Assembly: GCA_017543025.1 (NCBI GenBank)
Contig: JAFYGX010000029.1
Coordinates: forward strand, 1-18,994
From: Solobacterium sp.
Lineage (GTDB): Bacteria; Bacillota_I; Bacilli_A; Erysipelotrichales; Erysipelotrichaceae
Direction: 5' to 3'
DNA length: 18,994 bases
Below are positions 1 through 18,994 of this stretch, one piece after another (position 1 is the first letter of the stretch; each line of letters begins with the position of its first letter). Made by a program: the position numbers and the translations under genes. The notes beneath the pieces were generated by a model. That model saw only the letters and a list, made by a program, of their open reading frames with translations. It was not told the origin of the DNA and did not search any database.

Positions 1-336
1 CAGATAGATATTCTCGAGGCCGGAATATTCCATATTGAATCCCGCGCCGAGTTCGAGCAGTGCAGAGATACGGCCATTGATCGTGATCGTGCCGGAAGTG
101 GGACTGAGAACGCCGGTGATCATTTTCAAGGTAGTTGACTTGCCCGCTCCGTTGGAGCCGATGATTCCGATCGTTTCACCTTTCTTTACGGAGAAGGAAA
201 GATGATCAACCGCACGGTATTCCCGGTAAAGCTTGTGGCGGGCAAGGCCGAGCGAGTCTTTCAGCCGGTCAAGCGGTTTATCATACAGCCTGTATACTTT
301 GCATACATCCTTGAGTTCGATCGCATTGTCTGACAT
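1..336 (-). CDS. ABC transporter ATP-binding protein for polysaccharide/teichoic acid export (N-terminal part, runs off the window)
   Basis: This is the ATPase half of a two-component glycan exporter, acting at the inner face of the membrane with the permease encoded just upstream. The first 112 residues are visible and translate without interruption to the window edge. A Walker A motif GSNGAGKST lies at residues 60-68, and the stretch ALLELGAGF followed by ENIYL is typical of the Wzt/TagH/RfbE branch rather than importers. The Q-loop region onward (signature motif, Walker B, any C-terminal glycan-binding domain) is outside the window, so Wzt-like and TagH-like versions cannot be told apart. 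The start is the ATG at 334-336, with GGAGG directly after the TAA stop of the permease gene (15-base gap), which implies one transcript and coupled translation. Confidence 0.93.
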
Positions 337-2097: not shown

Positions 2098-3795
2098 ATG
2101 AAAAACTGGAAACGATCCCTGCGTTTATGGGATTACATGTCTGCTTACGGCCTCGGCGCATCGCTCCGCAAAGCCATCTATAAATTCAACCCTGCCTATC
2201 AGCAGTGGTTTCTTTCCCAGCAGGCCGACAACGAACTGCTGCTGAAACAGTCAGAGACCCGCTTTTCCTATGCCCCTCTGATCAGTATTCTCATGCCCGT
2301 ATACAACACTCCCCCTGCCCTTCTGCAGGCAGCGCTGGATTCTGTTGTGCTGCAGTCCTATGCAAACTGGGAGCTGTGCATTGCCAACGGCGGATGCGGA
2401 AGAGAAGCACAGGAGATTCTGGAAGATTATGAAGCAGCCGATCCCCGGATCAAAGTCATCACCCTGCCGGAAAACCGCGGGATTTCCGGCAATACGAACG
2501 CCTGTCTGGAACTGACGGAAGGCGAATATACCGCACTGTTTGACCATGACGATCTGCTTGAGCCGGATGCGCTGTTTGAAATCGTAAAAGCGCTGCAGGA
2601 AAAGCGGCATGATGTGCTGTATACCGATGAAGACAAATACCGCACGTCGTTCGGCCGGTTCTTCGAGCCGAACTACAAGCCTGATTTCTCGCCGGAGTAT
2701 CTTCGTTCCTGCAATTACATCACCCACTTTTTCGTGGTGAAAACCGCCCTTGTCAGAACGCTTGGCGGCTTTCGCTCCGCCTATGACGGCTCACAGGATT
2801 ATGATCTGATCCTGCGGTGCGTCAGTGCGGCAGAATCTGTCTTTCATATCCGGCGCATTCTGTATCACTGGTGCATTCATTCCGGTTCAACGGCAGACGA
2901 TCCTGAAAGCAAGCGCTACTGTTTTGAAGCTGGTGCAGCCGCGATCCATGACAGCGATCAGAATAACGGCATTGACAATGAGGTAACCATCTATCCCGGT
3001 CTTTATACGGTATATCAGTCACATATTCGCCCCCGTACGCTGCGCAGCCTGAGTGTGCTGATTGCCTGCAGGAGCCATGACAATGAACAGCTTGCCGGCT
3101 GTATTGCCTCCGTTCGAACTGCACTTGAGCAGCAGCAGATCATTCCTCACTTCATAATAATCGGAGATGAAGCAGCCGAAAGCCGGTACCGCCAGCTTTC
3201 AGAACACAAATCTGATCTTTCCTTTCTGAAGGAAGCAAATTCGGTTTATGAGAGTTTCAATCTTGCCGTACAGATGGCTGACACAGATGATGTGCTGTTT
3301 CTTTCCGACGAACTGCGGCCCGATGCAGAGGCAGATTTCGCTTCTGCCCTCTCACTACTGTCTGTTCCGGGCGTCAGCGTGCTTGGCGCAAAGCTTCTGA
3401 ATGGAGATACCATCGTATCTTCCGCAAAGACAATCGACGCAAAAGGAACAGAATACGATATATTCCGCGGGCTGAACCGCGGCGAACACGGCTATCAGTA
3501 CCGGGCAGTCATACCGAACAATGTGCGTTCGGTGTCCCTTTACGGAATGTGCACAAGACGGGAAACATTTCTGTCCATGGGCGGATTTGATCCTTCGGCC
3601 GGCCCTTCCCCGGAGTTTCACTACTGTCTTCGTGTATGGGATCAGAGACAGCGTGTTGTCTTTGTCCCGGAGCTTCTGTTTCAGACACCTGCGATGCCAG
3701 GCAGTCTGTTCAGGCCATCCCGGGATACCGTATTCGTGGATAACGATCCGTTCTGGAATCCGCGGATCTTCTTTCACTCCGGCTACTACCGCTGA
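2098..3795 (+). CDS. Two-domain GT2 family glycosyltransferase
   Basis: This is a cytoplasmic or membrane-associated GT-A fold enzyme that probably adds sugar(s) to the lipid-linked glycan. The first GT2 domain (about 60-285) is intact: ISILMPVYN at 62-70, ENRGISGNTN at 125-134, the metal-binding FDHDD at 148-152, YTDEDK at 175-180 and GSQDYDL at 231-237 with the later YHW, which resembles RgpF/O-antigen-type rhamnan or galactan transferases. The second half (about 318-565) follows the same fold pattern and ends in NDPFWNPRIFF, common in this subfamily, but shows LSDELRP where a DxD motif is expected and may be non-catalytic. It is the only plus-strand gene of the window, with its own promoter, and is convergent with the 3866-4576 gene. 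The donor and acceptor sugars cannot be read from the sequence. Confidence 0.93.
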   Translation: MKNWKRSLRLWDYMSAYGLGASLRKAIYKFNPAYQQWFLSQQADNELLLKQSETRFSYAPLISILMPVYNTPPALLQAALDSVVLQSYANWELCIANGGCGREAQEILEDYEAADPRIKVITLPENRGISGNTNACLELTEGEYTALFDHDDLLEPDALFEIVKALQEKRHDVLYTDEDKYRTSFGRFFEPNYKPDFSPEYLRSCNYITHFFVVKTALVRTLGGFRSAYDGSQDYDLILRCVSAAESVFHIRRILYHWCIHSGSTADDPESKRYCFEAGAAAIHDSDQNNGIDNEVTIYPGLYTVYQSHIRPRTLRSLSVLIACRSHDNEQLAGCIASVRTALEQQQIIPHFIIIGDEAAESRYRQLSEHKSDLSFLKEANSVYESFNLAVQMADTDDVLFLSDELRPDAEADFASALSLLSVPGVSVLGAKLLNGDTIVSSAKTIDAKGTEYDIFRGLNRGEHGYQYRAVIPNNVRSVSLYGMCTRRETFLSMGGFDPSAGPSPEFHYCLRVWDQRQRVVFVPELLFQTPAMPGSLFRPSRDTVFVDNDPFWNPRIFFHSGYYR

Positions 3796-3865: not shown

Positions 3866-4576
3866 TCAATGTGTCCTGGCAATCCGCAGCAGCAGTTCTT
3901 CTGTGAAATGAATCCGGTTTGTGATCATTTTCAGCAGCGGGTAATGATGCATTGACGTCACATTTCCGCCATGCCTGCGATAGGAAATCAGTTTATCATC
4001 AATAAAACGGCCGCAGTGCTTCCACTCGCTGATCAGTCCGATCCATGTATCATGCATTTCAATATTCTGCGGAATCGGAAGAATATATTCTTTCAGCTCC
4101 CGTTTGAACGCCACGCAGCAGCCAAGATATGAATTGCGCAGAAGATTGGCAAACAGGCCCGGCTTTGAATGACGCAGTTCATAGAAGGATTCAAAGATGA
4201 CATTAGTTCCCGTTTCATCCACGACGTTCGCATCATGAACCACAGTCCATACCTCCGGCTGCTTCATCGCCTCCAGAACGGTTTCCGCTTTATTCGCCAT
4301 CCAGAGATCATCCTGATCGCTGAGAAAAATCACATCGCCGGAAGCGTGTGCAATCGCATTGGCGAAGTTCTGATGGACGCCTTTTTTCGGCCCCTGCAGG
4401 ACAGTGATATGCGGAAAACGCTTCTGAAATTCCGCAATGACCGCAAGCGTACCATCCTGTGATCCGTCATCGGAAATGATGATTTCATCTTCGTCTTTCA
4501 GATTCACAAGAATCGTTTCAAGCTGTTCGCTGAGATACTTTTCACCGTTATAGGTTGCCATGCATACTGAAATCAT
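3866..4576 (-). CDS. GT2 family glycosyltransferase (short, CpsI/RgpB-like)
   Basis: This 236-residue GT-A enzyme is predicted to transfer one sugar onto the undecaprenyl-linked glycan in the cytoplasm. Visible signatures are ISVCMATYNGEKYLSEQL at the N-terminus, IISDDGSQDGT at about 33-43, the nucleotide-sugar/metal motif LSDQDDLW at 85-92, MHDTWIGL as the acceptor-side motif, and the closing YRRHGGNVT. This set is typical of streptococcal-type rhamnosyl or galactosyl transferases, but the exact sugar is unknown. The preceding gene's TGA (4586-4588) overlaps the GAGGG ribosome binding site, with 9 bases between the two reading frames, so translation is likely coupled. It is the last gene of this operon before the shared terminator. 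Confidence 0.92.
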   Translation of the reverse strand: MISVCMATYNGEKYLSEQLETILVNLKDEDEIIISDDGSQDGTLAVIAEFQKRFPHITVLQGPKKGVHQNFANAIAHASGDVIFLSDQDDLWMANKAETVLEAMKQPEVWTVVHDANVVDETGTNVIFESFYELRHSKPGLFANLLRNSYLGCCVAFKRELKEYILPIPQNIEMHDTWIGLISEWKHCGRFIDDKLISYRRHGGNVTSMHHYPLLKMITNRIHFTEELLLRIARTH

Positions 4577-4585
4577 CTTCTGCCC

Positions 4586-5350
4586 TCATTCTGACCGGAT
4601 CCGGAAATAGATTGATTTGATCAGCTCCCAGCCATAGGATTCCAGCCAGTAAATACGGCTGTAGCCGTTGTCCCGGTAAGCCCGGTATTTTTCAGTCGCC
4701 CGCTTCAGCACACTGCTGAGACGGGTGTCCGTGCTGATGCCGTCCGCCGGGAAATTCGTAATGATCTTCGGAATTACCCGGATTCTGATATCTGTTTTCC
4801 GCAGTCTGGTATACAGATGGAAATCCGCATAATACCGGTAGGTTTCATCAAAGAAATACTTCTGATAGATCTCTCTTCTCAGAAACATGCTCGGATGGTT
4901 CCAGTGTCTCGAAGAGATGGGAAACCGGTCGATTCTTGACATCTTCACCGTAACCGATCCGTCGGGATTGATATAGTTCAGCCCGCCGTATGTCAGATCA
5001 AACGGTTCTTCCGCATAGAACGCATTGACATCACTGAGGGCGGACGGAAGATATGTATCACCCGCATTCAGAAAGGAAATGAAATCTCCCGATGCCAGGC
5101 GGATTCCCTTGTTCATCGCATTGTAAATGCCTGTATCCTTCTCGCTTGCGACGGTATATGCGATTCCTTTCGCTTCAAACGCACTGCGGTAACGCTCCGC
5201 AATCGAAACCGTACGGTCTGCGGATGCGCCATCCAGTATCAGATATTCATACGGTACGTATTCCTGGTTCAGGACGGACTGAATCGTCGGTTCAATGACC
5301 GCTTCCGCATTGTAGCAGACGGTTATGACAGAAAATCGAAGTCCTTTCAT
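4586..5350 (-). CDS. GT2 family glycosyltransferase (WcaE-like)
   Basis: This 254-residue glycosyltransferase contains FSVITVCYNAE at 6-16, ILDGASADRT at 38-47, the strongly characteristic SEKDTGIYNAMNKG at 69-82, and NAGD at 95-98 in the position of the usual DxD. The tail WNHPSMFLRREIY plus FDETYRYYADFHLYTRL is typical of the colanic-acid WcaE/PssK-like branch of GT2. It has no membrane segment. The start at 5348-5350 follows AAGGAG at good spacing, 24 bases after the sugar-transferase gene's stop codon. It is the middle gene of a three-gene minus-strand operon, and probably adds an early sugar after the priming enzyme. Confidence 0.92.
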   Translation of the reverse strand: MKGLRFSVITVCYNAEAVIEPTIQSVLNQEYVPYEYLILDGASADRTVSIAERYRSAFEAKGIAYTVASEKDTGIYNAMNKGIRLASGDFISFLNAGDTYLPSALSDVNAFYAEEPFDLTYGGLNYINPDGSVTVKMSRIDRFPISSRHWNHPSMFLRREIYQKYFFDETYRYYADFHLYTRLRKTDIRIRVIPKIITNFPADGISTDTRLSSVLKRATEKYRAYRDNGYSRIYWLESYGWELIKSIYFRIRSE

Positions 5351-7514: not shown

Positions 7515-7554
7515 CTGAACGACCGGATTCCCCTTATGCGATCATGAGAAAAAC

Positions 7555-7603
7555 GCCTGGTTCTGAAGCAGCCAGCCGGTTCATCGGTTCAGAACTGACT
7601 GGC
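7555..7603 (-). terminator. Second terminator-like hairpin downstream of the first surface-protein gene
   Basis: GTTCTGAA at 7560-7567 pairs with TTCAGAAC at 7588-7595, with an outer GCC/GGC pairing (7555-7557 with 7601-7603) across a small internal loop. On the minus strand the stem is followed by GTTTTTCT. The 20-base loop makes it weaker than the hairpin at 7682-7716. Confidence 0.4.
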
Positions 7604-7673
7604 AGCACTCACTCAGGGCACTGCGGGTTTACTTCAATACCGTTTTCGCTGTCTCTCCTACAGCCGTAACGCG

Positions 7674-7716
7674 TAAGAAAAAGGATCCCTGAATGCAGCG
7701 CGCAGTCAGGAATCCT
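7674..7716 (-). terminator. Rho-independent terminator of the surface-protein gene at 7753-10860
   Basis: AGGATCCCTGA at 7682-7692 and TCAGGAATCCT at 7706-7716 form an 11-bp stem (one G-T wobble) followed on the minus strand by TTTTTCTT. It ends 37 bases after the stop codon. Confidence 0.85.
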
Positions 7717-7752
7717 CTCTGTTTGCTCAGAATGATCTGCAGTGCTGCAGAA

Positions 7753-10700
7753 TCAGTTCTTTTTTGCGGCGTAGAATCCGATGCCTTCGTTTTTCCAGCC
7801 AGCCTGAACCAGAGAATCACGTTCTTCTGTACTGGTCGTGTAATGGTGCGATCCGGCAGTCGCATTCGGGTTGTACAGACGATACAGCGGCATGCCGTCA
7901 GAGTCTGCAGAATACCATGCAATGCCTTCATACTTCCAGCCGGCGTTTACGAGGCTGTCGCACTCTGCCTTACTGGTCGTGTAATGATGATCGCCGGCAT
8001 TCGGGTTGTAAACACGGTATACCGGATGGTCCGATTTCACCGGCGCCCGGAATCCGATTCCTTCATCCTTCCAGCCCGCATTTACAAGCACTGCTTTCTC
8101 CTGTGCGCTTCCGGTATAGAAGTGTTCACCGGAGTTCGGGTTGTAAAGCCGGAACATCTCAATCGAGTCCGTCGGGGTTGGTGTCGGGGTTGGTGTCGGT
8201 GTCGGTGTCGGAGTCGGAGTGGGAGTGGGAGTAGGAGTGGGAGTGGGAGTAGGAGTGGGAGTCGGTTCCGGTCCTGCATCCTTTACCGTAAAGACAGCTT
8301 CCGCAGGATTCTTCGAATCTGTAAATGTTACAGCCAGCTTATGTTCTCCTGCCGAAAGCGTTTCCAGATATACAGTTTTCAGGGTGAGCACAAGCCCTTC
8401 ATCTCCTTTTGCGGTTTTTGTCTGATACGCATCTGCCGCAAGTTCTTTTCCATCAACTGTTACAGCTGCCATTCGCTCAGCGGTATCAGCGTCAAACATA
8501 CTCGCATTGATGGTGAATTCGAGATCTTTCGCTGATTTTTTCTCATAAACAGACTGATCTCCTGCAGTGAACTTATACACTTTAAGTTCAAATGGATATA
8601 TGAATCCTCTGTACGCATTCAGATTTTCTGTCTCATCGACCACGTATGTGTAGTATTTTCCATCATTATCCATGAAGCAGGCGCCTTTTTTACTGCTGAA
8701 CGCCACTTTGTCATCGAACACTTTTCCTCCGGCTGTATAGATGAGAAGGCGATTATGAGTATCTGCGCTGAAGGAATCTGTCAGTGTGGTTCCTGCCACA
8801 CCGCCGATCCCATATCCGTCTGCCAGCATAATACCAAGTGCGCCTTCGCCCGAGAAAAACAGATTTCCTTCTGAATAGATGCCATATGTTACCGTATTGT
8901 TTTCCGGTTTGGAAACAAGATCCAGTGCTGTGAAATCCCCGCTCTGCATTGCTTTCTGAGCCTCTTCACTATCACCTGCCGACAGGATGGTACTGGTATT
9001 GTTCAGATGGATCTCCAGTGATTTCAGGCCGCTGTAAATACCGCATCTCTGCTCCGTGCCAACCTCTTTTGTCATCGGCATCAGTGACGCTCCATTCAAT
9101 GTCAGCACATGATTGATGTGATCATACTGAACGGAAGCTTTGCTGTCCTTCATGACATTATTCCGATTCAGTCCGGTAACCCGAATATCGGAAACCCAGA
9201 GGTCATACTTCACTTCACTGAGGATCACTGCTTTCTGACTGTTCAGATCGGTTTCAAATGCATCATTATCGCTGAAGAAATATTTCAGCCAGCTTTCATC
9301 TTCCAGCTGATTGCTCAGCACAGCCCCGGAATCCTCATTGCTTTCACTTGTCAGTCCGAAACATGCCCCATCCGAAAGACCTTCCGCTGTCACGACATTG
9401 CCTTTCATCAGGAAGATATTGTCTGCTGTCTTCTTCTGTTCTTCACCGGTTCCGCTTGCACGGAAGTTGTCTTTTACAACCGCATTCTGTGTGACAGTAA
9501 ACCGGGATTCCCCGTCAGGCGCACTGCCTGCTTCCGTATAAATGCCGCCGCCGGCCCCGGTCCCGGCATCGATGACCTGATTATTGCATACAAGACTGGA
9601 CTCTCCCATATGGAAGTTTCCGTTCAGCGCAAGGTAAACGCCGCCGCCGTTCACATTTGCCGAGTTATCAGTGATCTTTGCGGCTGTTTCCCCTTCTCCG
9701 TTCAGGGATGCAATTCCATAGCGGTCAATATAGATCGCGCCGCCCTTTTCATCCGCATAGTTGTTGCTCAGAACCGTATTGTTCAGCTCGAGTTCCGCAC
9801 TCGCACTGACCCAGCTGTTCGCTGCGCCTTCCAGGTAGATTCCGGCACCGTTTCCGCCGGTTTTTCCCGCTTTCACTGCCTGGCTTAACATAACCCTGCT
9901 GTTGTTCAGAATAACTCTCGCAGTATGTGCCTGGGAAGTCCGTGAGCTGAAACCGGATACGCCTGCTTTTGCGTAAACCGCACCGCCATTCTGCGCATGT
10001 CCGCTGAGCAGGGTGCTGTTTATTTCCATCATCGTATCTTCACTGACATAAACTGCACCGCCGTTCTGGGCTGCTTTACCCAGAATGTCACTTTTTTCCG
10101 CATGAAGCTCACCGCCAGCTTCGATATAAACCGCGCCGCCGTTCTTCTTGGACTCACCCAGCAGCGTAGCATCTTCCAGATTGACGGTTCCGCCGCTCAC
10201 AAGGATTACACCTCCGTTGCCATCGGAAACGCCATTCAGACCAGCTCCTCTGACATTCAGTATGTTATTGATTCCAAGAATTCTTGAATCCGTAACATTC
10301 GCAATCCGGCCGGTTTCAGATATGATTACGCCATTATCCACATCACCCTCTGTTTCTGAAATGATGTTCAGGGTTCCTCTTCCGCCATTCAGCAAAAAGT
10401 AATTAACGGTAAACAGCGTTCCGCTTCCTTTATAGGTAAGCGAATGGCTGTTCAGATCAATCGTCCGTTCACCGCCATTAACCGTAAACGTATTGTCACC
10501 GGCATCCGCATCTTTGAGAAGAACCAGCTTATCGCCGTTACTCCAGTTCTGCGCAGCCTTTACAAACGTACTGATGTAGGTCACTTCACCCTTACTGTCG
10601 ATCTTCTGTACTTCAGGATCAACGGGATCACCTTCGAGGTCATTTTCCTCTTCTGTTACATCTGCAGGTTCTTCTGTCTGTACGACATCCTCTTCCTGCT

Positions 10701-10860
10701 CATCCGTTTCTTCCTCATCCACGGACTCCGCGGTAATTTCTTCTGCTGTTTCTTCTCCTATCTCTGCTTCTTCGGCAGATACTGCAGCAGAAATATTGCC
10801 GCCGGCCATGAACAATGCCAGAACAGACGCAAGCATGGTCCGAAAAACTTTCGTTTTCAT
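7753..10860 (-). CDS. Secreted multidomain surface protein 1: beta-helix, YDLWV module, X2-like domain, (PT)16 linker, three DUF5648-type repeats
   Basis: This 1035-residue exported protein has an unknown role; adhesion or glycan binding is plausible. The signal peptide ends at AVSA (29). A very acidic tail (30-85) follows, then a right-handed beta-helix-like region (about 95-490) with repeated NGGAVY/GGAIY/GGGVY turns recalling chlamydial Pmp repeats (for example KGGAIYID at 372-379). Next come a module beginning YDLWVSDIRV (552-561) with LTLNGA and GIYS turns, an X2-like beta-sandwich (about 748-862), a (PT)16 linker (866-897) and three C-terminal repeats (903-1035) of the type I know as DUF5648. 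The start at 10858-10860 follows GGAGGGAATCC. No LPXTG, SLH or transmembrane anchor is visible. It is transcribed alone and is the leftmost of four paralogues. Confidence 0.94.
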   Translation of the reverse strand: MKTKVFRTMLASVLALFMAGGNISAAVSAEEAEIGEETAEEITAESVDEEETDEQEEDVVQTEEPADVTEEENDLEGDPVDPEVQKIDSKGEVTYISTFVKAAQNWSNGDKLVLLKDADAGDNTFTVNGGERTIDLNSHSLTYKGSGTLFTVNYFLLNGGRGTLNIISETEGDVDNGVIISETGRIANVTDSRILGINNILNVRGAGLNGVSDGNGGVILVSGGTVNLEDATLLGESKKNGGAVYIEAGGELHAEKSDILGKAAQNGGAVYVSEDTMMEINSTLLSGHAQNGGAVYAKAGVSGFSSRTSQAHTARVILNNSRVMLSQAVKAGKTGGNGAGIYLEGAANSWVSASAELELNNTVLSNNYADEKGGAIYIDRYGIASLNGEGETAAKITDNSANVNGGGVYLALNGNFHMGESSLVCNNQVIDAGTGAGGGIYTEAGSAPDGESRFTVTQNAVVKDNFRASGTGEEQKKTADNIFLMKGNVVTAEGLSDGACFGLTSESNEDSGAVLSNQLEDESWLKYFFSDNDAFETDLNSQKAVILSEVKYDLWVSDIRVTGLNRNNVMKDSKASVQYDHINHVLTLNGASLMPMTKEVGTEQRCGIYSGLKSLEIHLNNTSTILSAGDSEEAQKAMQSGDFTALDLVSKPENNTVTYGIYSEGNLFFSGEGALGIMLADGYGIGGVAGTTLTDSFSADTHNRLLIYTAGGKVFDDKVAFSSKKGACFMDNDGKYYTYVVDETENLNAYRGFIYPFELKVYKFTAGDQSVYEKKSAKDLEFTINASMFDADTAERMAAVTVDGKELAADAYQTKTAKGDEGLVLTLKTVYLETLSAGEHKLAVTFTDSKNPAEAVFTVKDAGPEPTPTPTPTPTPTPTPTPTPTPTPTPTPTPTPTDSIEMFRLYNPNSGEHFYTGSAQEKAVLVNAGWKDEGIGFRAPVKSDHPVYRVYNPNAGDHHYTTSKAECDSLVNAGWKYEGIAWYSADSDGMPLYRLYNPNATAGSHHYTTSTEERDSLVQAGWKNEGIGFYAAKKN
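7756..8154 (-). repeat. Three C-terminal DUF5648-type repeats of surface protein 1
   Basis: The repeats are 44, 45 and 44 residues long. Each reads roughly YRxYNPNxGxHxYT, then an acidic/basic helix-like part, then AGWKxEGIxFY. Repeat 1 has SGEHFYT, repeat 2 AGDHHYT, repeat 3 a two-residue insertion and GSHHYT. Confidence 0.9.
8170..8265 (-). repeat. Hexanucleotide array encoding (Pro-Thr)16
   Basis: Sixteen six-base units, each a CCN-ACN codon pair on the minus strand. Codon choice is not random along the array: one side uses CCA/CCG-ACA/ACC, the other CCC/CCT-ACT, with an 18-base higher-order unit repeated in tandem around 8215-8255. Length changes by whole units would keep the frame. Confidence 0.95.
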
Positions 10861-10887
10861 TATGTTGGATTCCCTCCTATAGTGCGG

Positions 10888-10916
10888 ATTATATCATTCC
10901 GAATTACAAATCACCA
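10888..10916 (-). promoter_or_regulatory. Candidate promoter of surface-protein gene 1
   Basis: A consensus TATAAT lies at 10888-10893 (minus strand), 27 bases ahead of the ATG. A poor -35 box TGGTGA at 10911-10916 is 17 bases upstream. The leader is short and carries the strong GGAGGG ribosome binding site. Confidence 0.55.
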
Positions 10917-11001
10917 GCACATCAGAAGAAGGATTTTACACATGCATTCATTTCATTCCTCTCACGCTTCCGCAATGCCTGCGGAACGGATCTAAGCAGG
11001 T

Positions 11002-11036
11002 AAAAAAAATCCCTGAATAAAATGCTTCAGGGATTT
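11002..11036 (-). terminator. Rho-independent terminator of surface-protein gene 2
   Basis: AAATCCCTGAA at 11007-11017 and TTCAGGGATTT at 11026-11036 form a perfect 11-bp stem with an 8-base loop. A T8 run follows on the minus strand. It lies about 30 bases after the stop at 11067. Confidence 0.92.
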
Positions 11037-11066
11037 CATATCCGGATTTTGATTCAGCTGCCGGAA

Positions 11067-13913
11067 TCAATTGGCCTTTGCGGCATAGAATCCGATGCCT
11101 TCATCTTTCCAGCCAACAGAGACAAGATAATCACGTTCCTGTGCGCTGGACGTATAGTGATGGGAACCGGTTAATGCATTCGGGTTGTACAGACGATACA
11201 TCGGAATACCGGTGCTGTCTGCCGCATACCATGCCACGCCTTCGTAGGTCCATCCGTTTTTGATCAGCAGTTCACACTCTTCCAGATTCAGTGTGTAGTG
11301 GTGATCACCGACATTCGGGTTATACAGACGATAGACCGGCTTGCTGGAATTCTTCATCGCATAGAAGCCGATGCCTTCATAACTCCATCCGGCAGAAACC
11401 AGACGGCCGCGTTCCTCTTCATTTGCAGTATAGAAGTGCTCTCCGCTGTTCGGGTTGTACATCCGGTACATCGGAACCGTCTGATCATCGACAGGGGTTG
11501 GTGTCGGAGTCGGGGTTGGTGTTGGAGTTGGTGTAGGAGTCGGAGTCGGCGTAGGTGTAGGCGTCGGTGTAGGAGTCGGAGTTGGTGTCGGAGTGGGGGT
11601 TGGTGTCGGAGTGGGGGTTGGTGTCGGTGTCGGAGTCGGAGCAGGTTTATCCTCCACGGTAAGTGTGGCTGTAACAGCGTCAGCGAAATCAGAGAACGAA
11701 ACCGAAACCGTATATTCTCCGGCAGGCATTGCGTCCAGTTTCTCCGCATTCAGACGCAGGGAAAGACCTTTTCCGTCTTTGGCTGCAGCGACTGTATAGT
11801 CTTCCGCTGCCAGTTCTGTGCCATTCAGCGCAGCAGTGCTGAAACGGCTCAGCGTATCTTCGTCAAACATGGATGCCGCATAGGTGAATTCAGGACCTTC
11901 GGCAGAGCCTTTGACCCATTTCTGCGATGCTGCAGAAGTAAGGGAGTAGGTCTTGAGTTCACTTGGATACTGGAAGTACGGATATGCATGCAGATCCTTG
12001 CCGGCAGGCATGATCGTATAACGGTTTCCGTCCGCATCCTTTACCAGAGCACCGGAGTTCCCATACACATTCACGTATTCAGAAAGCGCGCTTCTGCCTG
12101 CTTCAATTTTCACCGTCGTATGATCATCCAGCGCAAAGGTTGTTCCGCTTTCCGTTTCTTTCTCACGGACGAAGAATCCATCCGACTGTTCAGAGGCATC
12201 CGCAATCTTCAGATCGAGGTCTGCTCCGGCGAAGCCGGAAGACTGATCCAGCATGAAGCCGCATCTTACTTTGCCGTCTTTTCCTTTCAGCTGGATATCA
12301 ATATTGCTTACCATCACTGCAAGGTTCTGGGACCTGATTCCGATCTGTGCGGTATTGCCGGAGGTCATGGAAATATTGATCGGCGAATTGAGGATCACCA
12401 TCGATTTCTGTGAAAAGAGACCAATACCGGTTTTATTCGGTGTAAGGCTGATATCAAGACTTCCGTTCTTGCCTTCGATGCCAAGTCCGCCGTTGCTGTA
12501 AATACCGTATACATCATCTTTCGGATAAATTCCGTTTTTGATTGTTGTCTTGCCGTTTAGAACGACTTTCAGAGTCTCAAGACCGGAAAGCACAGCATAG
12601 CCGCTTTCATTTGCAGGATCAACGATCGAAGCAACCAGTGTCGCGTTATTAAGCGTCAGTTCATTAGTCTCCGGGTTAAAGGAAACTGTACCGTCTTCCT
12701 TGATGTCATCCCGGTTCGTTCCGCACACCTGAACGCCTTCAACCCAGAGATCATAGGTCTTCTCCGCAAAGATCGCAGCATTCGTTTTCGAAGCGATGAC
12801 CTCATACCGATCATCATCACTGACAAAGTTCAGCCCTGCCCTCTCGGCATCCGGCAGACTCGTGGTCAGCTCCATGCCCTGGGCGGCAGCTTTCTTATAA
12901 TCACTGACACTGAGACCAAGATATGCGCTGAGATCAAGATCACTGCTGATCAGGAGCTTGTTTTCAATCCAGCTTGTGGGGCCAAATTTTCTGATCACCA
13001 GATAGACGTTGTTCTGTACCGATTCGGTTTCAGAAGTCCTGAAGTTATCACGGACTGTCGGACCTCCGGCAACCGTTACTACACCATCCGCGTAGACACC
13101 GCCGCCGTTTTCAGAAGCGCTGTTGCCTTTGATCATGCCGTCATTCAGCGTAAATGTTCCAAAATCCGCTACATAGACGCCGGCGCCGTTTCTCGCAGTA
13201 CTGTCAGAGATTACACCGCCGTTCATGTTGAAGATACCGCCTGCGGAAACTTTGACTGCACCGCCGTTTTCCGCAGTATTACCGGTAAGCGTTCCGGACT
13301 GAAGCTGAAGAATTCCGCCGACACCGGGCAGCGGACTTCCCTTGACTTCCGCAACCCGTCCGTTTTCCGCAAGGATGGCACCGCCGTCCTTTGAGGAAAC
13401 AATATCAAGTTTTCCTCTGACGGAATTGGATTCAGACGGCACTTTTGTGTTTTCCTTTACCACAAACAGCGTATCGGTGTCTTTGCCGGTCAGTGTATGG
13501 CCGGTGAGATCAAGCGTAAAGTCTCCTTCATCGAATACATAGCTTTTGCCGCAGACTGTAACATCTGACAGAAGATACAGCGTATAACCGTTCTGCCAGT
13601 AGCTTACACAGAGATCGAAGGGGCCGGTCATAACCAGCTTGCCCTCGCCGTCTTTCACATATGCCTCAAAAAGAGCCTGGTCTTCTGAGGGTTCTTCGGC
13701 TTCCGGCAGCGTTCCTTCCGCTTCGGAAATGACTGTTTCTTCCTCTTCTTCCTGGGATTCTGCAGGCTGATCTTCTGCTTCATTTACTGTTTCAGCAGTT
13801 TCTTCTGTCTCTTCTTCTGCTTCTTCCGCAGAAACCATCGGAGAAACAGCACTGCCGAACAGGAAACAGGCCATGGAGGCACCAAGCAATGCCCGTAATT
13901 TCCTAGTAATCAT
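11067..13913 (-). CDS. Secreted multidomain surface protein 2: beta-helix, YDLWV module, X2-like domain, (PT)24 linker, three DUF5648-type repeats
   Basis: A paralogue of the neighbouring genes, 948 residues from the chosen start. Order: signal peptide ending MVSA (29), acidic tail (30-80), beta-helix-like region (about 83-310; ENGGAV, RNGAGVY, ENGGGVY turns), YDLWVEGVQV module from 387, X2-like beta-sandwich (about 640-755), a P(TP)24 linker (759-807), and three DUF5648-type repeats (815-948). An upstream in-frame ATG (13968-13970) would add 19 hydrophilic residues ahead of the signal peptide. I reject it because the ATG at 13911-13913 has GGAAAGGGAATCC in front, as in the sister genes, and gives the same cleavage position. 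No wall-sorting or membrane anchor is seen. It is monocistronic, and its function is unknown. Confidence 0.92.
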   Translation of the reverse strand: MITRKLRALLGASMACFLFGSAVSPMVSAEEAEEETEETAETVNEAEDQPAESQEEEEETVISEAEGTLPEAEEPSEDQALFEAYVKDGEGKLVMTGPFDLCVSYWQNGYTLYLLSDVTVCGKSYVFDEGDFTLDLTGHTLTGKDTDTLFVVKENTKVPSESNSVRGKLDIVSSKDGGAILAENGRVAEVKGSPLPGVGGILQLQSGTLTGNTAENGGAVKVSAGGIFNMNGGVISDSTARNGAGVYVADFGTFTLNDGMIKGNSASENGGGVYADGVVTVAGGPTVRDNFRTSETESVQNNVYLVIRKFGPTSWIENKLLISSDLDLSAYLGLSVSDYKKAAAQGMELTTSLPDAERAGLNFVSDDDRYEVIASKTNAAIFAEKTYDLWVEGVQVCGTNRDDIKEDGTVSFNPETNELTLNNATLVASIVDPANESGYAVLSGLETLKVVLNGKTTIKNGIYPKDDVYGIYSNGGLGIEGKNGSLDISLTPNKTGIGLFSQKSMVILNSPINISMTSGNTAQIGIRSQNLAVMVSNIDIQLKGKDGKVRCGFMLDQSSGFAGADLDLKIADASEQSDGFFVREKETESGTTFALDDHTTVKIEAGRSALSEYVNVYGNSGALVKDADGNRYTIMPAGKDLHAYPYFQYPSELKTYSLTSAASQKWVKGSAEGPEFTYAASMFDEDTLSRFSTAALNGTELAAEDYTVAAAKDGKGLSLRLNAEKLDAMPAGEYTVSVSFSDFADAVTATLTVEDKPAPTPTPTPTPTPTPTPTPTPTPTPTPTPTPTPTPTPTPTPTPTPTPTPTPVDDQTVPMYRMYNPNSGEHFYTANEEERGRLVSAGWSYEGIGFYAMKNSSKPVYRLYNPNVGDHHYTLNLEECELLIKNGWTYEGVAWYAADSTGIPMYRLYNPNALTGSHHYTSSAQERDYLVSVGWKDEGIGFYAAKAN
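11070..11471 (-). repeat. Three C-terminal DUF5648-type repeats of surface protein 2
   Basis: These 134 residues show the same order as in the sister proteins: MYRMYNPNSGEHFYT, VYRLYNPNVGDHHYT and MYRLYNPNALTGSHHYT open the three repeats, and each closes with GW followed by EGIGFY or EGVAWY. Confidence 0.9.
11493..11639 (-). repeat. Hexanucleotide array encoding P(TP)24
   Basis: These 147 bases form 49 alternating Pro and Thr codons. An 18-base higher-order unit is repeated exactly at 11583-11600 and 11601-11618, which points to expansion by slippage or unequal exchange. Confidence 0.95.
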
Positions 13914-13945
13914 TCGTGGATTCCCTTTCCCTTTCATATGACTGA

Positions 13946-13954
13946 ATTTTACCA
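13946..13954 (-). promoter_or_regulatory. Candidate extended -10 promoter of surface-protein gene 2
   Basis: The minus strand reads TGGTAAAAT, an extended -10 element 32 bases ahead of the chosen ATG at 13913. A TTGATA further upstream (13972-13977) is at a poor 20-base spacing. This placement also argues against the upstream ATG at 13970, which would lie before the promoter. Confidence 0.45.
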
Positions 13955-14007
13955 TGTTCCTTAACTGCATTTATCAAAAAAACTGCTTTCTGTCACGAAT
14001 GCAGAGA

Positions 14008-14035
14008 AAAAATGATTCTGCCGGGCAGAATCATT
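14008..14035 (-). terminator. Rho-independent terminator of surface-protein gene 3
   Basis: AATGATTCTG at 14011-14020 pairs with CAGAATCATT at 14026-14035 (11 bp with the C-G loop closure), followed by a T-run on the minus strand. It lies about 40 bases after the stop codon at 14075. Confidence 0.85.
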
Positions 14036-14074
14036 CATGCATATACGCAAATGGTTATGAATCAGCGTCCATTT

Positions 14075-15880
14075 TTACTCTTCGGTATAGAACGCGATTC
14101 CTTCAAACTTCCAGCCTGCTTTGATCAGGCTGTCACGTTCCTTCTGATCGGATGTATAGAAATGTGCGCCAGCTTCCGCATTCGGATTATACAGACGATA
14201 CTGTGCAGCACTGCCGGAGGCATACCATGCAATTCCTTCATCTTTCCAGCCTGCTTTGACCAGAAGCTCTTTTTCTGCAGGATTTACGGTATAGAAGTGA
14301 TCTCCTGCATTCGGGTTGTATACGCGGAATACCGGACGGGCAGAAGTCTTCAGCGTAATGAAGCTGACACCTTCATAGAACCATCTGGTGTTGATCAGAT
14401 GATCGCGTTCCTGCGGGTTTGCGGTATAGAAGTGTTCCCCGGAATTCGGATTATAGAAGCGATAGACCTCGGTATACTCTTTTGCCGGAGGGGTTGGTGC
14501 AGGCGGATCTGCTTCTGCAACTGAGAAACCGGCTCTGATTTTTGTTTCCCAGTCCGTAAAGGTAATTGTCAGTGTATGCGTTCCGACCGAGAGTGTTTCA
14601 AGCTTATCCCGGTACAGCGATATGACCACTCCTTTATTGCCGTGACCGGCGTTGGAGGTATATTCCTCCGAGGAAAGCAGTTTGCCGTCAAGCTCGACCA
14701 TTGAAAGATTCCTGCTGGTATCTTCATCAAGCAGGGATGCGCTGCAGGCAAAGGAGATTCCATCCTGTCCCCCTTTCTTCCACTCCTGCTGATCTCCGCT
14801 GACAAGCGAATAGGTCTTCATCTCATACGGAGCTTCCAGATAGCAGTACCCCGACATATCATAGCCGGACGGATTAAAGGTGAGCTGGCTTCCCTCTCTG
14901 TCTTTTGCAAGTGCAGTCAGACCGGTCTTGATGAAAAAGCGCTTATTTGCGAAGGAACCGTTCCGTGTGTCAATCTTCAGCGAACATTGTTCATCGAATG
15001 TCATTTCGGAATAATTAGCGGTATAGAAGCCAAATGCATCGGTAACCGCCGGATCAAGCACAAACTCAACGGAAGACCCCGCAGCAAAGGACTTATTGCC
15101 GATTACTGCTCCGATATGTCCCTGGCCAAACGAGCCGGACAGCTTTTCGCGAAGTTCTGTTCCCTTAAGATTCAGCGCGCCGTCAGTATAAATACCGGTA
15201 AGCGATCCGCGGCCTGACATATCCATCGTCGTCTGTTTGTTTTCAAGCTCGATATTTCCGCCTGCCTTCAGACCGATGGCATGATAATTGGAAGTATATC
15301 TGATGTTCAGACTGCCGTTTCCGGTCAGCTTCAGGCCCTTTTTTGCATAGATTCCATTCGCATCATAGTCATAGACAAGACCGTTTTCCAGATCTTCTCC
15401 GTTCTCGGAAGATCCTGCAAGTTCCGGCCTGTTCTCAGTTTCGTTCGATATCCGGTTTGTTCCGTAGAGTACAACTGTGAGATCCCGGTCAATTCCGCAA
15501 TAGATGCCATAGAATGTACTGCTGCCTTCCCGTAACGATCCAAGAATCGCTGCGTTCTGAAGCGAGAGCGTATTGGTATCCGGGTCATAGCTTCCGGTAC
15601 CGTTGTCACCCATAGGAAAAACATCAGAATTCTTGCTGGTAATCTGAAGTGAACCAACATACAGATCATAGTTTATTACCGGTTCATCCCCTTCCAGCGG
15701 TTCTTCTTCCCCGCTGTCTTCCGGTTCCGGTTTTTCCGGTTCTTCCGTTTCATTCCCGAAAACAGTGATCGATTCCGGTTCTTCCGCTTCTTCTGCATGG
15801 ACGGCAGGTCTCAGTGTTCCGCCCATCAGGAAAACAGCCAGAAATGCCAAAGACAGTACGCTGAATTTATTTCTGCTCAT
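14075..15880 (-). CDS. Secreted surface protein 3: YDLYV module, X2-like domain, short linker, three DUF5648-type repeats
   Basis: A 601-residue paralogue lacking the beta-helix and the long Pro-Thr linker. The signal peptide ends AVHA (29), then a Glu/Pro-rich acidic tail (30-66). Next is a module opening YDLYVGSLQI (71-80) with SYDPDTNTLSLQNA and GIYC/GIYA/GIYTDG turns, the conserved ALAKDREG stretch, an X2-like beta-sandwich (about 340-457; HTLTITFTDWE), a short Pro-rich joint (PPAPTPPA) and three repeats (472-601). The start at 15878-15880 is chosen over an ATG 63 bases upstream because GGAAAGGGGTAAATTCG precedes it and the signal peptide then aligns with the sister proteins. No surface anchor is recognised. 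It has its own promoter and terminator; function unknown. Confidence 0.91.
   Translation of the reverse strand: MSRNKFSVLSLAFLAVFLMGGTLRPAVHAEEAEEPESITVFGNETEEPEKPEPEDSGEEEPLEGDEPVINYDLYVGSLQITSKNSDVFPMGDNGTGSYDPDTNTLSLQNAAILGSLREGSSTFYGIYCGIDRDLTVVLYGTNRISNETENRPELAGSSENGEDLENGLVYDYDANGIYAKKGLKLTGNGSLNIRYTSNYHAIGLKAGGNIELENKQTTMDMSGRGSLTGIYTDGALNLKGTELREKLSGSFGQGHIGAVIGNKSFAAGSSVEFVLDPAVTDAFGFYTANYSEMTFDEQCSLKIDTRNGSFANKRFFIKTGLTALAKDREGSQLTFNPSGYDMSGYCYLEAPYEMKTYSLVSGDQQEWKKGGQDGISFACSASLLDEDTSRNLSMVELDGKLLSSEEYTSNAGHGNKGVVISLYRDKLETLSVGTHTLTITFTDWETKIRAGFSVAEADPPAPTPPAKEYTEVYRFYNPNSGEHFYTANPQERDHLINTRWFYEGVSFITLKTSARPVFRVYNPNAGDHFYTVNPAEKELLVKAGWKDEGIAWYASGSAAQYRLYNPNAEAGAHFYTSDQKERDSLIKAGWKFEGIAFYTEE
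14078..14467 (-). repeat. Three C-terminal DUF5648-type repeats of surface protein 3
   Basis: Repeats of 45, 44 and 41 residues open with VYRFYNPNSGEHFYT, VFRVYNPNAGDHFYT and YRLYNPNAEAGAHFYT. The first repeat is the most diverged at its end (NTRWFYEGVSF instead of AGWKxEGIxF). Confidence 0.88.
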
Positions 15881-15913
15881 CGAATTTACCCCTTTCCGTA
15901 AACAACTGGTTTT

Positions 15914-15943
15914 ATTGTAACTGTTTCGTTTCTTTCCAATCAA
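15914..15943 (-). promoter_or_regulatory. Candidate promoter of surface-protein gene 3
   Basis: On the minus strand TTGATT (15938-15943), an 18-base spacer and TACAAT (15914-15919) lie about 34 bases upstream of the ATG at 15880. This is the best-formed -35/-10 pair among the four paralogues. The longer reading frame starting at 15943 would overlap this promoter. Confidence 0.55.
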
Positions 15944-15987
15944 CAGGAGTTTTTTTCAAATCACATCCTGCGCTCTGCCGGAATATG

Positions 15988-16018
15988 AAAAAGCCCTGAA
16001 TCCTGCAATTCAGAGCTT
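15988..16018 (-). terminator. Rho-independent terminator of surface-protein gene 4
   Basis: AAGCCCTGAAT at 15991-16001 pairs with ATTCAGAGCTT at 16008-16018 (11 bp, one wobble on the minus strand), loop CCTGCA, followed by a T-run. It lies 15 bases after the stop codon. Confidence 0.85.
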
Positions 16019-16032
16019 CAAATCATCAGTGT

Positions 16033-17685
16033 TTATTTCACAATGCAGAATGCAATTCCTTCATCCTTCCAGCCTGCTTTGACAAGTGCTTCCACTTCCT
16101 CTTTGCTGGAGGTAAAGTGATGCGCACCGGTTTCTGCATTCGGGTTGTACAGGCGATACAGCGGTGTTCCGTCTTCACCGGACGCATACCAGGCAACGCC
16201 TTCGTCCTTCCAGCCGGCTTTGACAAGAGTCTCAAGCTCTTCCCTGCTGGAGGTATAGTGATGATCTCCCGCATTGGGATTATAGACACGGTATACCGGC
16301 ATATCACTGGTCTTCAGTGCAGTAAATCCGATACCTTCATTTTTCCAGCCTGCTGCTTCAAGCGCTGCAGCTTCTTTCGGATTACCGGTATAGAAATGCT
16401 CGCCGGAACTCGGATTGTACATACGGTTCAGTTCGGTTACATCCAGCTTGCCTTCCGCAATCGTGAACAGTGAATCTACCGATTCTTCCGAATCAATGAA
16501 ATCAACGCTCAGATAATGTTCGCCGGCTTCCCACTCCGCCAGTTCTTCCGGGAATACCGTAAGAACCAGTCCGGTTCCGTCTTCCTTTGCGTCAAACAGA
16601 ATGGAATCATCGCTGAGTTCAAATTCGTCAATCGCACACGTGTCAAACCGCAGCATCGTATCTTCATCGAAGATGGAGCTCTTGTAAGTAAAGGTCAGGC
16701 CTTCCTCACTGCCCGTGGTCCAGGTCTGATTATCGCCGGAGACCAGAGAATAGGCTTTCATTTTATACGGCATCTCAAGATAGACATAGGCCGAAAGATC
16801 TTCTGTTTCAGGCAGGATGGTATAGCGCTCACCTTCCGCATCCTTTACCAGCGCAGTCTGTTCGCTCATCAGCCATGCCTGTGAACTGCCGACATTACCG
16901 TTTCCGGTATCAATGGTCATCTTTGTCTTTTCATCGACATAGAAGACCGCTTCCTGTTCTTCCAGGGAGCTGCTGAGACCGACTCCGCCGACAACAGTCA
17001 GATTGAGCTCAGACTCTGTGAACTCCGCATCCGAATCATTCAGAACAATTCCGTTCTGATCCGTCTCAGAACCGGTATTGCCGTTAATCCGCATGGAAAG
17101 CACCGCATGTTCAAGCTTCAGTCCTTCATCACCGGCCTCAATTCCGAACTTTGACTGATTGCCGTTCAGATCAATATTGAGTGCGGCATTACGGATTGTC
17201 AGACCGCCGGCAGAAATACCGAAATTATCCTCATTGGAGATCAGACTGATGTCAAGTGATCCCTCACCGGCAATCACAACCGGGCCATTGCTGTAGATGC
17301 CTCCGTGAATTCCGGCAGTCCGATCATTTTTAATCGTATTCTTTCCCGTGAGTTCAACCGTCAGGTCGTCAACCTCTGAAAAAATACCGTAAAATGCGTC
17401 CTCTTCCGCCTTTCCGGTGCTGAACGCCGCATTGTCCAGTGTCAGTTTCTTTGCGGCTGCGTCATAGGAAACCTTCTTATTTCCCAGTACATCAGCCGCA
17501 TTATCAGATGTGACCTGCTTCCCGCCGACCCAGAGCGGATATGGTTCTGCAAGTTCGGTAATTTCACCTGCTGTTTCTCCTGTTTCAACCGGTTCCTCCG
17601 CCATTACTGCAGGATTCAGCAGAGTTCCGAGCATCAGAACCGCTAATCCCGCTGCCGGCATAATTCTGAAACATAACCTGTTCAT
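16033..17685 (-). CDS. Secreted surface protein 4: YPLWV module, X2-like domain, three DUF5648-type repeats, no linker
   Basis: The shortest paralogue at 550 residues. The signal peptide ends AVMA (29), followed by a short acidic stretch (30-47). The module begins YPLWVGGKQVTSDNAADV at 49-66, then VSYDAAAKKLTLDNA and repeated GIFS/GIYSNG turns, a beta-rich arrangement common in secreted proteins of gut Bacillota (Cthe_2159-like in style; assignment uncertain). ALVKDAEGERYTI precedes the X2-like beta-sandwich (about 296-412), which runs straight into the three repeats (419-550). No Pro-Thr linker and no anchor motif are present. The start at 17683-17685 follows GGAAAGGGATAAATCGA. It is the first of the four paralogues after rfbC but is separated from it by a terminator, so it is not in the rfb operon. 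Function unknown. Confidence 0.92.
   Translation of the reverse strand: MNRLCFRIMPAAGLAVLMLGTLLNPAVMAEEPVETGETAGEITELAEPYPLWVGGKQVTSDNAADVLGNKKVSYDAAAKKLTLDNAAFSTGKAEEDAFYGIFSEVDDLTVELTGKNTIKNDRTAGIHGGIYSNGPVVIAGEGSLDISLISNEDNFGISAGGLTIRNAALNIDLNGNQSKFGIEAGDEGLKLEHAVLSMRINGNTGSETDQNGIVLNDSDAEFTESELNLTVVGGVGLSSSLEEQEAVFYVDEKTKMTIDTGNGNVGSSQAWLMSEQTALVKDAEGERYTILPETEDLSAYVYLEMPYKMKAYSLVSGDNQTWTTGSEEGLTFTYKSSIFDEDTMLRFDTCAIDEFELSDDSILFDAKEDGTGLVLTVFPEELAEWEAGEHYLSVDFIDSEESVDSLFTIAEGKLDVTELNRMYNPSSGEHFYTGNPKEAAALEAAGWKNEGIGFTALKTSDMPVYRVYNPNAGDHHYTSSREELETLVKAGWKDEGVAWYASGEDGTPLYRLYNPNAETGAHHFTSSKEEVEALVKAGWKDEGIAFCIVK
16036..16431 (-). repeat. Three C-terminal DUF5648-type repeats of surface protein 4
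   Basis: Repeats of 45, 45 and 42 residues open with LNRMYNPSSGEHFYT, VYRVYNPNAGDHHYT and LYRLYNPNAETGAHHFT, each closing with AGWKxEG followed by an aromatic-rich end. The order of the three types is the same as in the other paralogues. Confidence 0.9.
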
Positions 17686-17717
17686 TCGATTTATCCCTTT
17701 CCAACTAAGTACTTTCT

Positions 17718-17748
17718 ATTCTACCTTATTGCCATTTTTCTGTGACAA
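17718..17748 (-). promoter_or_regulatory. Candidate promoter of surface-protein gene 4
   Basis: TTGTCA (17743-17748) and TAGAAT (17718-17723) on the minus strand, with a long 19-base spacer, lie 33 bases ahead of the ATG. The spacing is not ideal, so the call is tentative. Confidence 0.35.
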
Positions 17749-17830
17749 CAAGAATCATATTTTTTTCCTGCTCCGCTTCCATCGAAGATCATCTTTCGTT
17801 AACGGGAACCGAACCCCAGAAAAAGAAATG

Positions 17831-17860
17831 AAAGAAAAGCCGCAGCCATCAGACTGCAGC
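17831..17860 (-). terminator. Probable terminator downstream of rfbC
   Basis: GCCGCAG at 17839-17845 and CTGCAGC at 17854-17860 pair on the minus strand (7 bp, one G-T wobble), followed by TTTTCTTT. It lies about 90 bases after the rfbC stop. The stem is short, so read-through into surface-protein gene 4 is possible. Confidence 0.55.
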
Positions 17861-17951
17861 CTGTCATAAACCATTTATTCCGTCTCTGCGCAGAATGAAG
17901 CCACAGATGTTGCGTGACCGCCATTCCTGTGCCGATGGTTCATTTTCCGGT

Positions 17952-18518
17952 TCAGTATTTGGCAAACCAGGCAAAATCCTGTTCCTTGAACGACTGATGA
18001 AGCTTGTCCTTCGGGCTTGTCACATAAGGAATATCAAGCGAAGGCCATTCCACGCCAATCGTCGGATCGTCCCATGGTATGCCGCCTTCACTGGACGGAT
18101 CATAAAGATCGGTGCACTTGTAAACAAACTGGGCGGTATCGCTCAGTACCAGAAACCCATGCGCAATGCCTTCCGGCATATAGAACATGTTCTTTTTCTG
18201 CGAATCCAGCACGACGCCGGTCCATTTGCCGAATGTTTCGGAATTCGGACGGCAGTCCACCGCAACGTCATATACCGTTCCGCTTGTCACCCGGACAAGC
18301 TTTCCCTGGGTATGGTTTTTCTGAAAGTGAAGACCGCGCAGCACTCCCTTCGTGGAAAAGCTTTCGTTGTCCTGAACAAACGGTTTTGTAATGCCGGCAG
18401 CGGCGAAGTCCTGTTCATGATAGGTCTCCATGAAGTAACCGCGCTCATCCCCGAACACCCGGGGCTGAATTACATATACGCCTCTGACTGCGGTTTCCGT
18501 AAATTCAAACTGTCCCAT
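17952..18518 (-). CDS. rfbC: dTDP-4-dehydrorhamnose 3,5-epimerase
   Basis: RmlC epimerises C3 and C5 of dTDP-4-keto-6-deoxyglucose, the third step of dTDP-L-rhamnose synthesis, in the cytoplasm. The 188-residue cupin has the full family pattern: VFGDERGYFMETY at 21-33 (substrate loop), QDNESFSTKGVLRGLHFQ at 49-66 with the catalytic His64, YDVAVD at 83-88, MPEGIAHGFLVL at 114-125, and Tyr133 in FVYKC as the likely acid. Length and motifs are normal. It starts 6 bases after the rfbB stop, and its GGGG ribosome binding site lies inside the end of rfbB, so the two form an operon. rfbA and rfbD are not in the window and may lie to the right. Confidence 0.97.
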   Translation of the reverse strand: MGQFEFTETAVRGVYVIQPRVFGDERGYFMETYHEQDFAAAGITKPFVQDNESFSTKGVLRGLHFQKNHTQGKLVRVTSGTVYDVAVDCRPNSETFGKWTGVVLDSQKKNMFYMPEGIAHGFLVLSDTAQFVYKCTDLYDPSSEGGIPWDDPTIGVEWPSLDIPYVTSPKDKLHQSFKEQDFAWFAKY

Positions 18519-18524
18519 AACGGT

Positions 18525-18994
18525 TTATTCCCCGATCGCTTCCTTTGCGCTGTACATCTGTTCGTAATACTTCTGATAATCACCTGAAGTAATGTGATCA
18601 ATCCATTCTTCATGCGTCAGATACCAGTCGATTGTCAGAATAATGCCCTTTTCAAACGGTGTCTCCGGATACCAGCCCAGATGCTCTTTGATCTTGGTCG
18701 GATCGATGCCGTAACGTCTGTCGTGGCCAAGCCGGTCTGTTACATGCATGATCAGGGAATCGTTGATGCCTTCATCATTGAGACGCTCATGGAGCGTATC
18801 AATGATTGTATTGACAATGAAAATATTGGTACGTTCGTTATGACCGCCGACGTTGTATACTTCGCCGATCTGTCCGTCAGAGGCAACCATGTCGATCGCC
18901 TTGCAGTGGTCTTCCACATACAGCCAGTCTCTGATCTGCATGCCATCGCCATACACCGGCAGGCTCTTATGATGCTTGACGTTGTTGATCATCA
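18525..18994 (-). CDS. rfbB: dTDP-glucose 4,6-dehydratase (C-terminal part, starts outside the window)
   Basis: The last ~156 residues of RmlB, the NAD-dependent short-chain dehydratase that makes dTDP-4-keto-6-deoxyglucose from dTDP-glucose (step two of dTDP-rhamnose synthesis). The conserved C-terminal substrate-binding stretch LPVYGDGMQIRDWLYVEDHC is present, followed by GEVYNVGGHNERTN and the late motif DRLGHDRRYGIDPTKI, with HLGWYPE further on. The NAD-binding Gly-rich loop and the catalytic Thr-Asp-Glu and Tyr-Lys residues would be upstream and are not visible. An internal ATG at 18990-18992 is not the gene start: it falls inside the conserved fold. The gene is followed directly by rfbC. 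Confidence 0.96.
   Translation of the reverse strand, partial: MINNVKHHKSLPVYGDGMQIRDWLYVEDHCKAIDMVASDGQIGEVYNVGGHNERTNIFIVNTIIDTLHERLNDEGINDSLIMHVTDRLGHDRRYGIDPTKIKEHLGWYPETPFEKGIILTIDWYLTHEEWIDHITSGDYQKYYEQMYSAKEAIGE

Follow-up and report, generated by a model that had tools for sequence, protein, structure and literature searches.

What are four consecutive genes for related secreted proteins doing inside a surface-glycan locus? The question comes from a Solobacterium sp. contig (JAFYGX010000029.1), of which positions 1 to 18,994 are analyzed here as the window. On its minus strand, positions 7753–17685 hold an array of four consecutive, intact and paralogous open reading frames (ORFs), each with a C-terminal PF18885 (DUF5648) domain. 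The array is flanked by rmlC and rmlB (17952–18992) on one side and by a sugar transferase of 698 amino acids (aa) on the other. A sequence-only reading of this DNA had described both the array and its place between rfbBC and the transferase, and both descriptions hold. The array probably encodes wall-display proteins, and phage lysins lend new support to DUF5648 as their anchor. In the reading that we prefer, at a probability of about 0.58, the proteins would be exported to the cell surface, where the three-bladed C-terminal DUF5648 would bind a wall component non-covalently, the most probable ligand being a glycopolymer. A stalk would be formed by the X2-like domain together with the linker, and it would bear the beta-helix as an exposed and diversified head, most probably an adhesin. 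A tie of the array to the adjoining glycan is plausible but unproven.

One core, a constant tail and variable heads

All four proteins share a common core. A signal peptide, judged from the sequence, is followed by a beta-helix with a DLWV-type motif at its start, then by an X2-like beta domain, a linker and the C-terminal DUF5648. Genes 3 and 4 have a short linker; that of genes 1 and 2 is made of Pro-Thr repeats. These repeats are encoded by 6-bp tandem units, so a change in copy number would shift the length of the stalk while the frame is kept. Each protein has one C-terminal PF18885 match, at 164.6–184.1 bits against a curated cut-off of 25 bits. The three DUF5648 repeats per protein that had been proposed are instead a single domain built of three blades of ~45 residues each. 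In a predicted structure of the gene 4 domain (pLDDT 94.5, pTM 0.84), three strand-strand-helix-strand units are seen, a layout that agrees with the published description of DUF5648 as three beta-alpha blades in one domain (PMC12853789). No solved relative of the fold turned up in this analysis. The X2-like sandwich of the sequence-only reading survives as a separate beta domain at that position in the gene 4 model, but as a family assignment it is tentative: CBM_X2 in gene 1 (E 0.013) and Shr-like_HID in gene 2 (E 0.0012) both lie below their cut-offs, and genes 3 and 4 have no X2-type Pfam match.

The tail is constant and the head variable. Pairwise identity among the four proteins is 59–66% in DUF5648, 33–44% in the X2-like domain and 27–38% in the beta-helix, with z-scores against 50 shuffles of 55–95, 18–31 and 8–34, respectively; by these sequence comparisons the paralogy spans the entire core and extends beyond the tail. 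An X2-like profile run over 138 proteins matched the window proteins and the database copy of gene 4 only, which fits a local duplication of whole genes. A tree of the tails, built from 121 rows with few columns, is indecisive on this point: a quick free search grouped the four array tails with three other proteins (P0003, P0005 and P0024), while a search with the four constrained together came out 20.9 log units better than the free one (p-AU 0.689).

The best fold match of the heads is the binding region of Lactobacillus reuteri adhesins (5ny0, 5nxk), at 9–15% identity over the aligned heads. The head fold by itself does not decide their role, because unrelated beta-helices score close behind. 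The heads could instead be enzymes that, like Pantoea WceF, act on the polysaccharide of their own locus by trimming or modifying it, with DUF5648 keeping them at their substrate. We consider this quite improbable: the top fold match is a binding region, though closely followed by unrelated beta-helices; of the positions invariant in all four proteins (gene 4 residues 48–300) nearly all are structural, and D251 and D282 alone are charged; and at E up to 1 Pfam gives no lyase or hydrolase for any of the four. The beta-helix module also recurs elsewhere as a transferable repeat unit, with four stretches in protein P0137 and two in P0138, the latter also carrying PF00404, which we take to be a dockerin.

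DUF5648 as the tail of phage lysins

Our own evidence for an anchor role comes from viral contigs, where DUF5648 is encoded at 40 loci. The ORFs of 20 of these, the first ten picked for a lysin-like layout, were scanned with Pfam. DUF5648 matched in all 20, and a lytic domain stood alongside it in 11: CHAP in L021, L024, L027, L028 and L029, ELLD in L011, L030 and L036, Amidase_2 in L025 and L039, and Amidase_3 in L026. Seven viral ORFs were compared with PHROGs, and those of L023 and L037 matched endolysin families. Endolysin-type proteins with DUF5648 are therefore encoded at 13 of the 40 loci, from at least four catalytic families (~11 distinct lysins, as L021/L024 and L027/L028 are close copies), and DUF5648 is C-terminal to the catalytic part in 13 of 13. 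When lysins with unrelated catalytic domains have one C-terminal domain in common, that domain typically binds the wall; the same argument has been made for another domain (PMC13379245). Of the other seven scanned loci, four encode small secreted proteins (L012, L014, L031, L032), two encode long proteins (L038, L041) and one, L020, a ricin-lectin protein; the 20 loci outside the Pfam scan resemble these non-lysin kinds or are weak matches (including L044–L050).

In Lactococcus phage BK5-T (L010, 2911–3687), DUF5648 is part of ORF33, which is annotated as GH25 and lies between a regulator gene and the integrase rather than in a lysis cassette; it is possibly a lysogeny-conversion surface protein, and similar secreted proteins are found on L031–L035 and L040. 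L012–L019 encode small secreted proteins that consist almost entirely of a signal peptide and DUF5648 (by Pfam for L012 and L014). We speculate that these could coat the wall and block the binding of phages or lysins.

In the protein matches taken together with the window proteins, the best DUF5648 domain is C-terminal in 92 of 124, and a peptidoglycan-acting domain is present on at least 14 of the 120 listed matches. DUF5648 is also matched in 339 plasmid records, 192 of them predicted to be conjugative. Conjugation and adhesin genes surround the DUF5648 gene in two of eight plasmid regions, those of a mobilizable Enterococcus avium plasmid (L057, 9911–10636) and of Lactococcus cremoris pFI430 (L062, 6368–7390). 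In the literature, the domain is a putative wall-binding domain of one E. cecorum prophage lysin type, GH25-DUF5648 (PMC13379245), an auxiliary domain of GH70 enzymes (PMC11299179), and, among the Bacteroidales secreted antimicrobial proteins (BSAPs), the C-terminal domain of one toxin group, whose members BSAP-2 and BSAP-3 target O-antigen (PMC12853789). Together with the lysins, the toxin group supports the view that these are surface proteins with a DUF5648 tied to surface glycans.

The toxins also suggest a different use of the tail, as a lectin for foreign or host glycans. The four proteins would then be secreted agglutinins or antagonists of neighbors, encoded beside the genes for the producer's own, non-recognized glycan, just as bsap-2 adjoins a resistant O-antigen locus while O-antigen is the target (PMC4999547). 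We regard this as improbable, if somewhat less so than the enzyme alternative, since none of the four proteins has a killing domain, be it MACPF (no match at E up to 1) or another, and an adhesin is the best match of their beta-helix heads. Phage lysins, moreover, act on the phage's own host, which would favor binding to the self wall.

Within the preferred reading, the parts differ in strength. That the tail is an anchor is likely. Its ligand could about equally well be a glycopolymer or peptidoglycan, and it is rather unlikely to be the very polymer made by the flanking rml, transferase and ABC genes. The heads might bind host, diet or neighbor glycans, for which we see slightly less than an even chance.

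The array and the adjoining glycan genes

In the order of minus-strand transcription, the locus reads rmlB (partial), rmlC, the four array genes, the 698-aa polyprenyl glycosylphosphotransferase, two family 2 glycosyltransferases, an ABC-2 permease and an ATPase; the third family 2 glycosyltransferase of the window is on the plus strand (Table 1). The array's position had been taken as a sign of a working link with the glycan. For such a link speak that position, the bsap-2 gene beside its O-antigen locus (PMC4999547) and the gene layout of Clostridioides difficile described below. It may also be that the position is a coincidence, with tandem-duplicated, wall-anchored adhesins lying inside a glycan locus, their tail binding peptidoglycan or a polymer whose genes lie elsewhere. 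This alternative is compatible with wall anchoring and contrary to the glycan link, and we consider it only a little short of an even bet.

The neighborhoods of DUF5648 genes elsewhere favor coincidence. Glycan-assembly genes were found near DUF5648 in none of eight annotated plasmid neighborhoods (flanks of 10–15 kb, one of 6.5 kb in L062) and in none of five genome neighborhoods (~5–10 kb per side). The eight were taken from the 339 matching records of a collection whose gene table is incomplete by its own statement, and a polysaccharide deacetylase ~9 kb away in L060 was excluded from the count. The five genome stretches were queried with the window's own glycan proteins minus the ABC ATPase; in L051 and L052, ORF picking retained an overlapping frame instead of the DUF5648 frame, a single weak match in L055 (GT2c, E 3.8e-4) was excluded, and a sixth DUF5648 genome (G673, L056) lies outside the count. 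RmlC is not enriched either, being present in two of six DUF5648-bearing genomes vs. 35 of 101 genomes sampled from the phylum. In a single scan of named genomes, two distant transferases turned up. These samples are biased and come from other, distant lineages, mostly plasmids, which seldom carry wall-glycan loci; DUF5648 is rare in the sampled phylum (5/299 and 4/299 genomes in overlapping samples) and class (1/391). They weaken a general rule, and with it the claim that position shows a working link, but leave this locus unsettled. The bsap-2 and C. difficile layouts, the latter with a different anchor, also stand against coincidence.

Codon usage differs slightly between the array and the glycan genes (chi-square p 2.7e-4; array GC3 0.489 vs. 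0.553 expected), which allows separate histories for the two and is again in keeping with coincidence. So is the occurrence of the tail on many unrelated heads: close tail relatives carry other heads, for example papain-like ones (P0005, P0024), so the tail is not bound to this locus. Terminator-like hairpins, finally, part genes 2, 3 and 4 from the next genes, and rmlC from gene 4. The sequence-only reading had given each array gene its own promoter and terminator. The hairpins 3' of genes 2, 3 and 4 and promoter-like sites ahead of gene 4 (17746–17718) and gene 3 (15943–15914) agree with it in part, while the window scan listed no hairpin after gene 1. Single sites of either kind carry little weight, given the whole-window counts against shuffled sequence (27 promoter-like sites vs. 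19.3 ± 4.3, and 18 terminator-like sites vs. 17.1 ± 4.8).

The neighborhood counts, the RmlC frequencies, the codon usage and the varied heads all weigh against the preferred reading, as do several other points. The best DUF5648 domain is not C-terminal in 32 of the 124 proteins, muropeptide docking in PMC13379245 took in DUF5648, and wall anchoring assumes a Gram-positive cell. NCBIfam gave only sub-cut-off matches for the array proteins; an LPXTG-protein family at residues 22–77 of gene 3 (E 0.043) and, in the X2/linker region of genes 1 and 2, internalin K are counted on this side too, although we took both to be compositional.

Table 1. Features of the window, in descending order of position.
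Feature	Position	Strand	Evidence or remark
rmlB-like dTDP-glucose dehydratase, 3' part, leaves window	18525..18992	-	PF16363 E 9.7e-21, PF01370 E 2.1e-11
rmlC, dTDP-4-dehydrorhamnose 3,5-epimerase	17952..18518	-	PF00908 E 3.1e-71
Terminator-like hairpin between rmlC and array (upstream of array)	17837..17862	-	11 pairs, 6 G-C
Array gene 4, 550 aa: signal peptide, beta-helix, X2-like domain, DUF5648	16033..17685	-	
Beta-helix of gene 4, residues 48–290	16816..17544	-	
X2-like beta domain of gene 4, ~residues 310–405	16471..16758	-	model strands 330–396; paralogy to X2-like stretch of other three
DUF5648 of gene 4	16036..16431	-	PF18885 E 1.7e-48; domain model
Terminator-like hairpin 3' of gene 4	15990..16019	-	13 pairs
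Array gene 3, 601 aa from ATG 15880	14075..15880	-	ORF 14075–15943 (TTG 15943 gives 622 aa)
DUF5648 of gene 3	14078..14467	-	PF18885 E 9.3e-49
Terminator-like hairpin 3' of gene 3	14010..14036	-	12 pairs
Array gene 2, 948 aa from ATG 13913, extra N-terminal PMP-type repeat stretch	11067..13913	-	TIGR01376 POMP repeat E 7.5e-4; ORF 11067–13970 (ATG 13970 gives 967 aa)
Pro-Thr linker of gene 2, 6-bp tandem repeat	11494..11641	-	
DUF5648 of gene 2	11070..11471	-	PF18885 E 3.2e-52
Terminator-like hairpin 3' of gene 2	11006..11037	-	12 pairs
Array gene 1, 1035 aa, extra N-terminal stretch with Chlam_PMP-type repeat	7753..10860	-	PF18885 E 1.7e-54, PF02415 E 6.3e-6
Pro-Thr linker of gene 1, 6-bp tandem repeat	8171..8265	-	
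DUF5648 of gene 1	7756..8157	-	PF18885 E 1.7e-54
Polyprenyl glycosylphosphotransferase, 698 aa	5375..7471	-	PF02397 E 5.7e-88, two Bac_transf stretches; TIGR03025 417 bits (cut-off 295.55)
Family 2 glycosyltransferase	4586..5350	-	PF00535 E 3.9e-27
Family 2 glycosyltransferase	3866..4576	-	PF00535 E 2e-26
Family 2 glycosyltransferase, opposite strand	2098..3795	+	PF00535 E 4.2e-27
ABC-2 type exporter permease	352..1755	-	PF01061 E 3.3e-16 at residues 212–425
ABC exporter ATPase, N-terminal part	1..336	-	PF00005 E 1.7e-15

The starts listed for genes 2 and 3 are the better ones, having a purine-rich stretch ahead and agreeing with the other two genes. Two of the neighboring genes have features of their own. 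The ABC-2 permease has ~200 additional residues N-terminal to its membrane domain. In the 698-aa transferase, the second Bac_transf copy reads LDELPQ with GPRP where the first reads MDGMPQ with GPKP at the matching sites, and three long relatives (P0122–P0124, 48–56% identical) likewise have DG in the first copy. The DE pair of Bac_transf is presumably catalytic; judged by these motifs, the first copy may be inactive, making this a tandem enzyme with a degenerate partner.

Comparison with known systems

The E. cecorum GH25-DUF5648 prophage lysin (PMC13379245) and the GH70 enzymes (PMC11299179) share the tail domain of the array proteins, there as a putative wall-binding or auxiliary domain. 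Unlike the array proteins, they are enzymes and not arrayed surface proteins. The L. reuteri serine-rich repeat adhesins (5ny0, 5nxk; PMC6973325) may resemble the heads in fold, at the low identity given above, but the translations of the four array proteins contain no serine-rich repeats, their tail is DUF5648, and no accessory Sec gene is found among the window ORFs scanned. With BSAP-2 and BSAP-3 (PMC12853789, PMC4999547) the array proteins have in common a C-terminal domain of the DUF5648 group and, for bsap-2, a place beside a surface-glycan locus; the BSAPs, however, are MACPF pore-formers.

In arrangement, the array parallels the Cwp and SlpA proteins of C. difficile, where the AP locus, the proposed maker of polysaccharide II, lies immediately downstream of the slpA and cwp genes, and CWB2 repeats bind polysaccharide II (PMC4973711). 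In both cases secreted wall proteins, putative ones in the array, are encoded in a row beside a glycan locus, three repeated units form the anchor (putatively so in the array), and a phage endolysin shares the type of anchor domain, a C. difficile phage endolysin having a binding domain derived from CWB2 (PMC9045149). DUF5648, however, is unrelated to CWB2, for which the four array proteins have no Pfam match at E up to 1, and neither SecA2 nor an S-layer gene was identified among the window ORFs.

If DUF5648 is a wall anchor, many poorly annotated secreted proteins gain a location and a testable ligand, and DUF5648 lysins gain a targeting rule. A broader and distinctly doubtful proposal is that DUF5648 is a three-blade wall-glycopolymer anchor common to surface adhesins, peptidoglycan hydrolases, plasmid surface proteins, phage lysins and glycan-targeting toxins alike. 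On this view the window would be a self-contained display locus, supplying a polymer together with four proteins that differ in their heads and dock on that polymer; it would correspond to the C. difficile Cwp/polysaccharide II system, though with an unrelated anchor. Should the ligand be the polymer of the flanking genes, there would be two known cases of wall proteins whose genes lie next to those for the polymer that anchors them, the second relying on an unrelated anchor. By this analogy, the array proteins may work like Cwp proteins, though they are not members of the CWB2 family.

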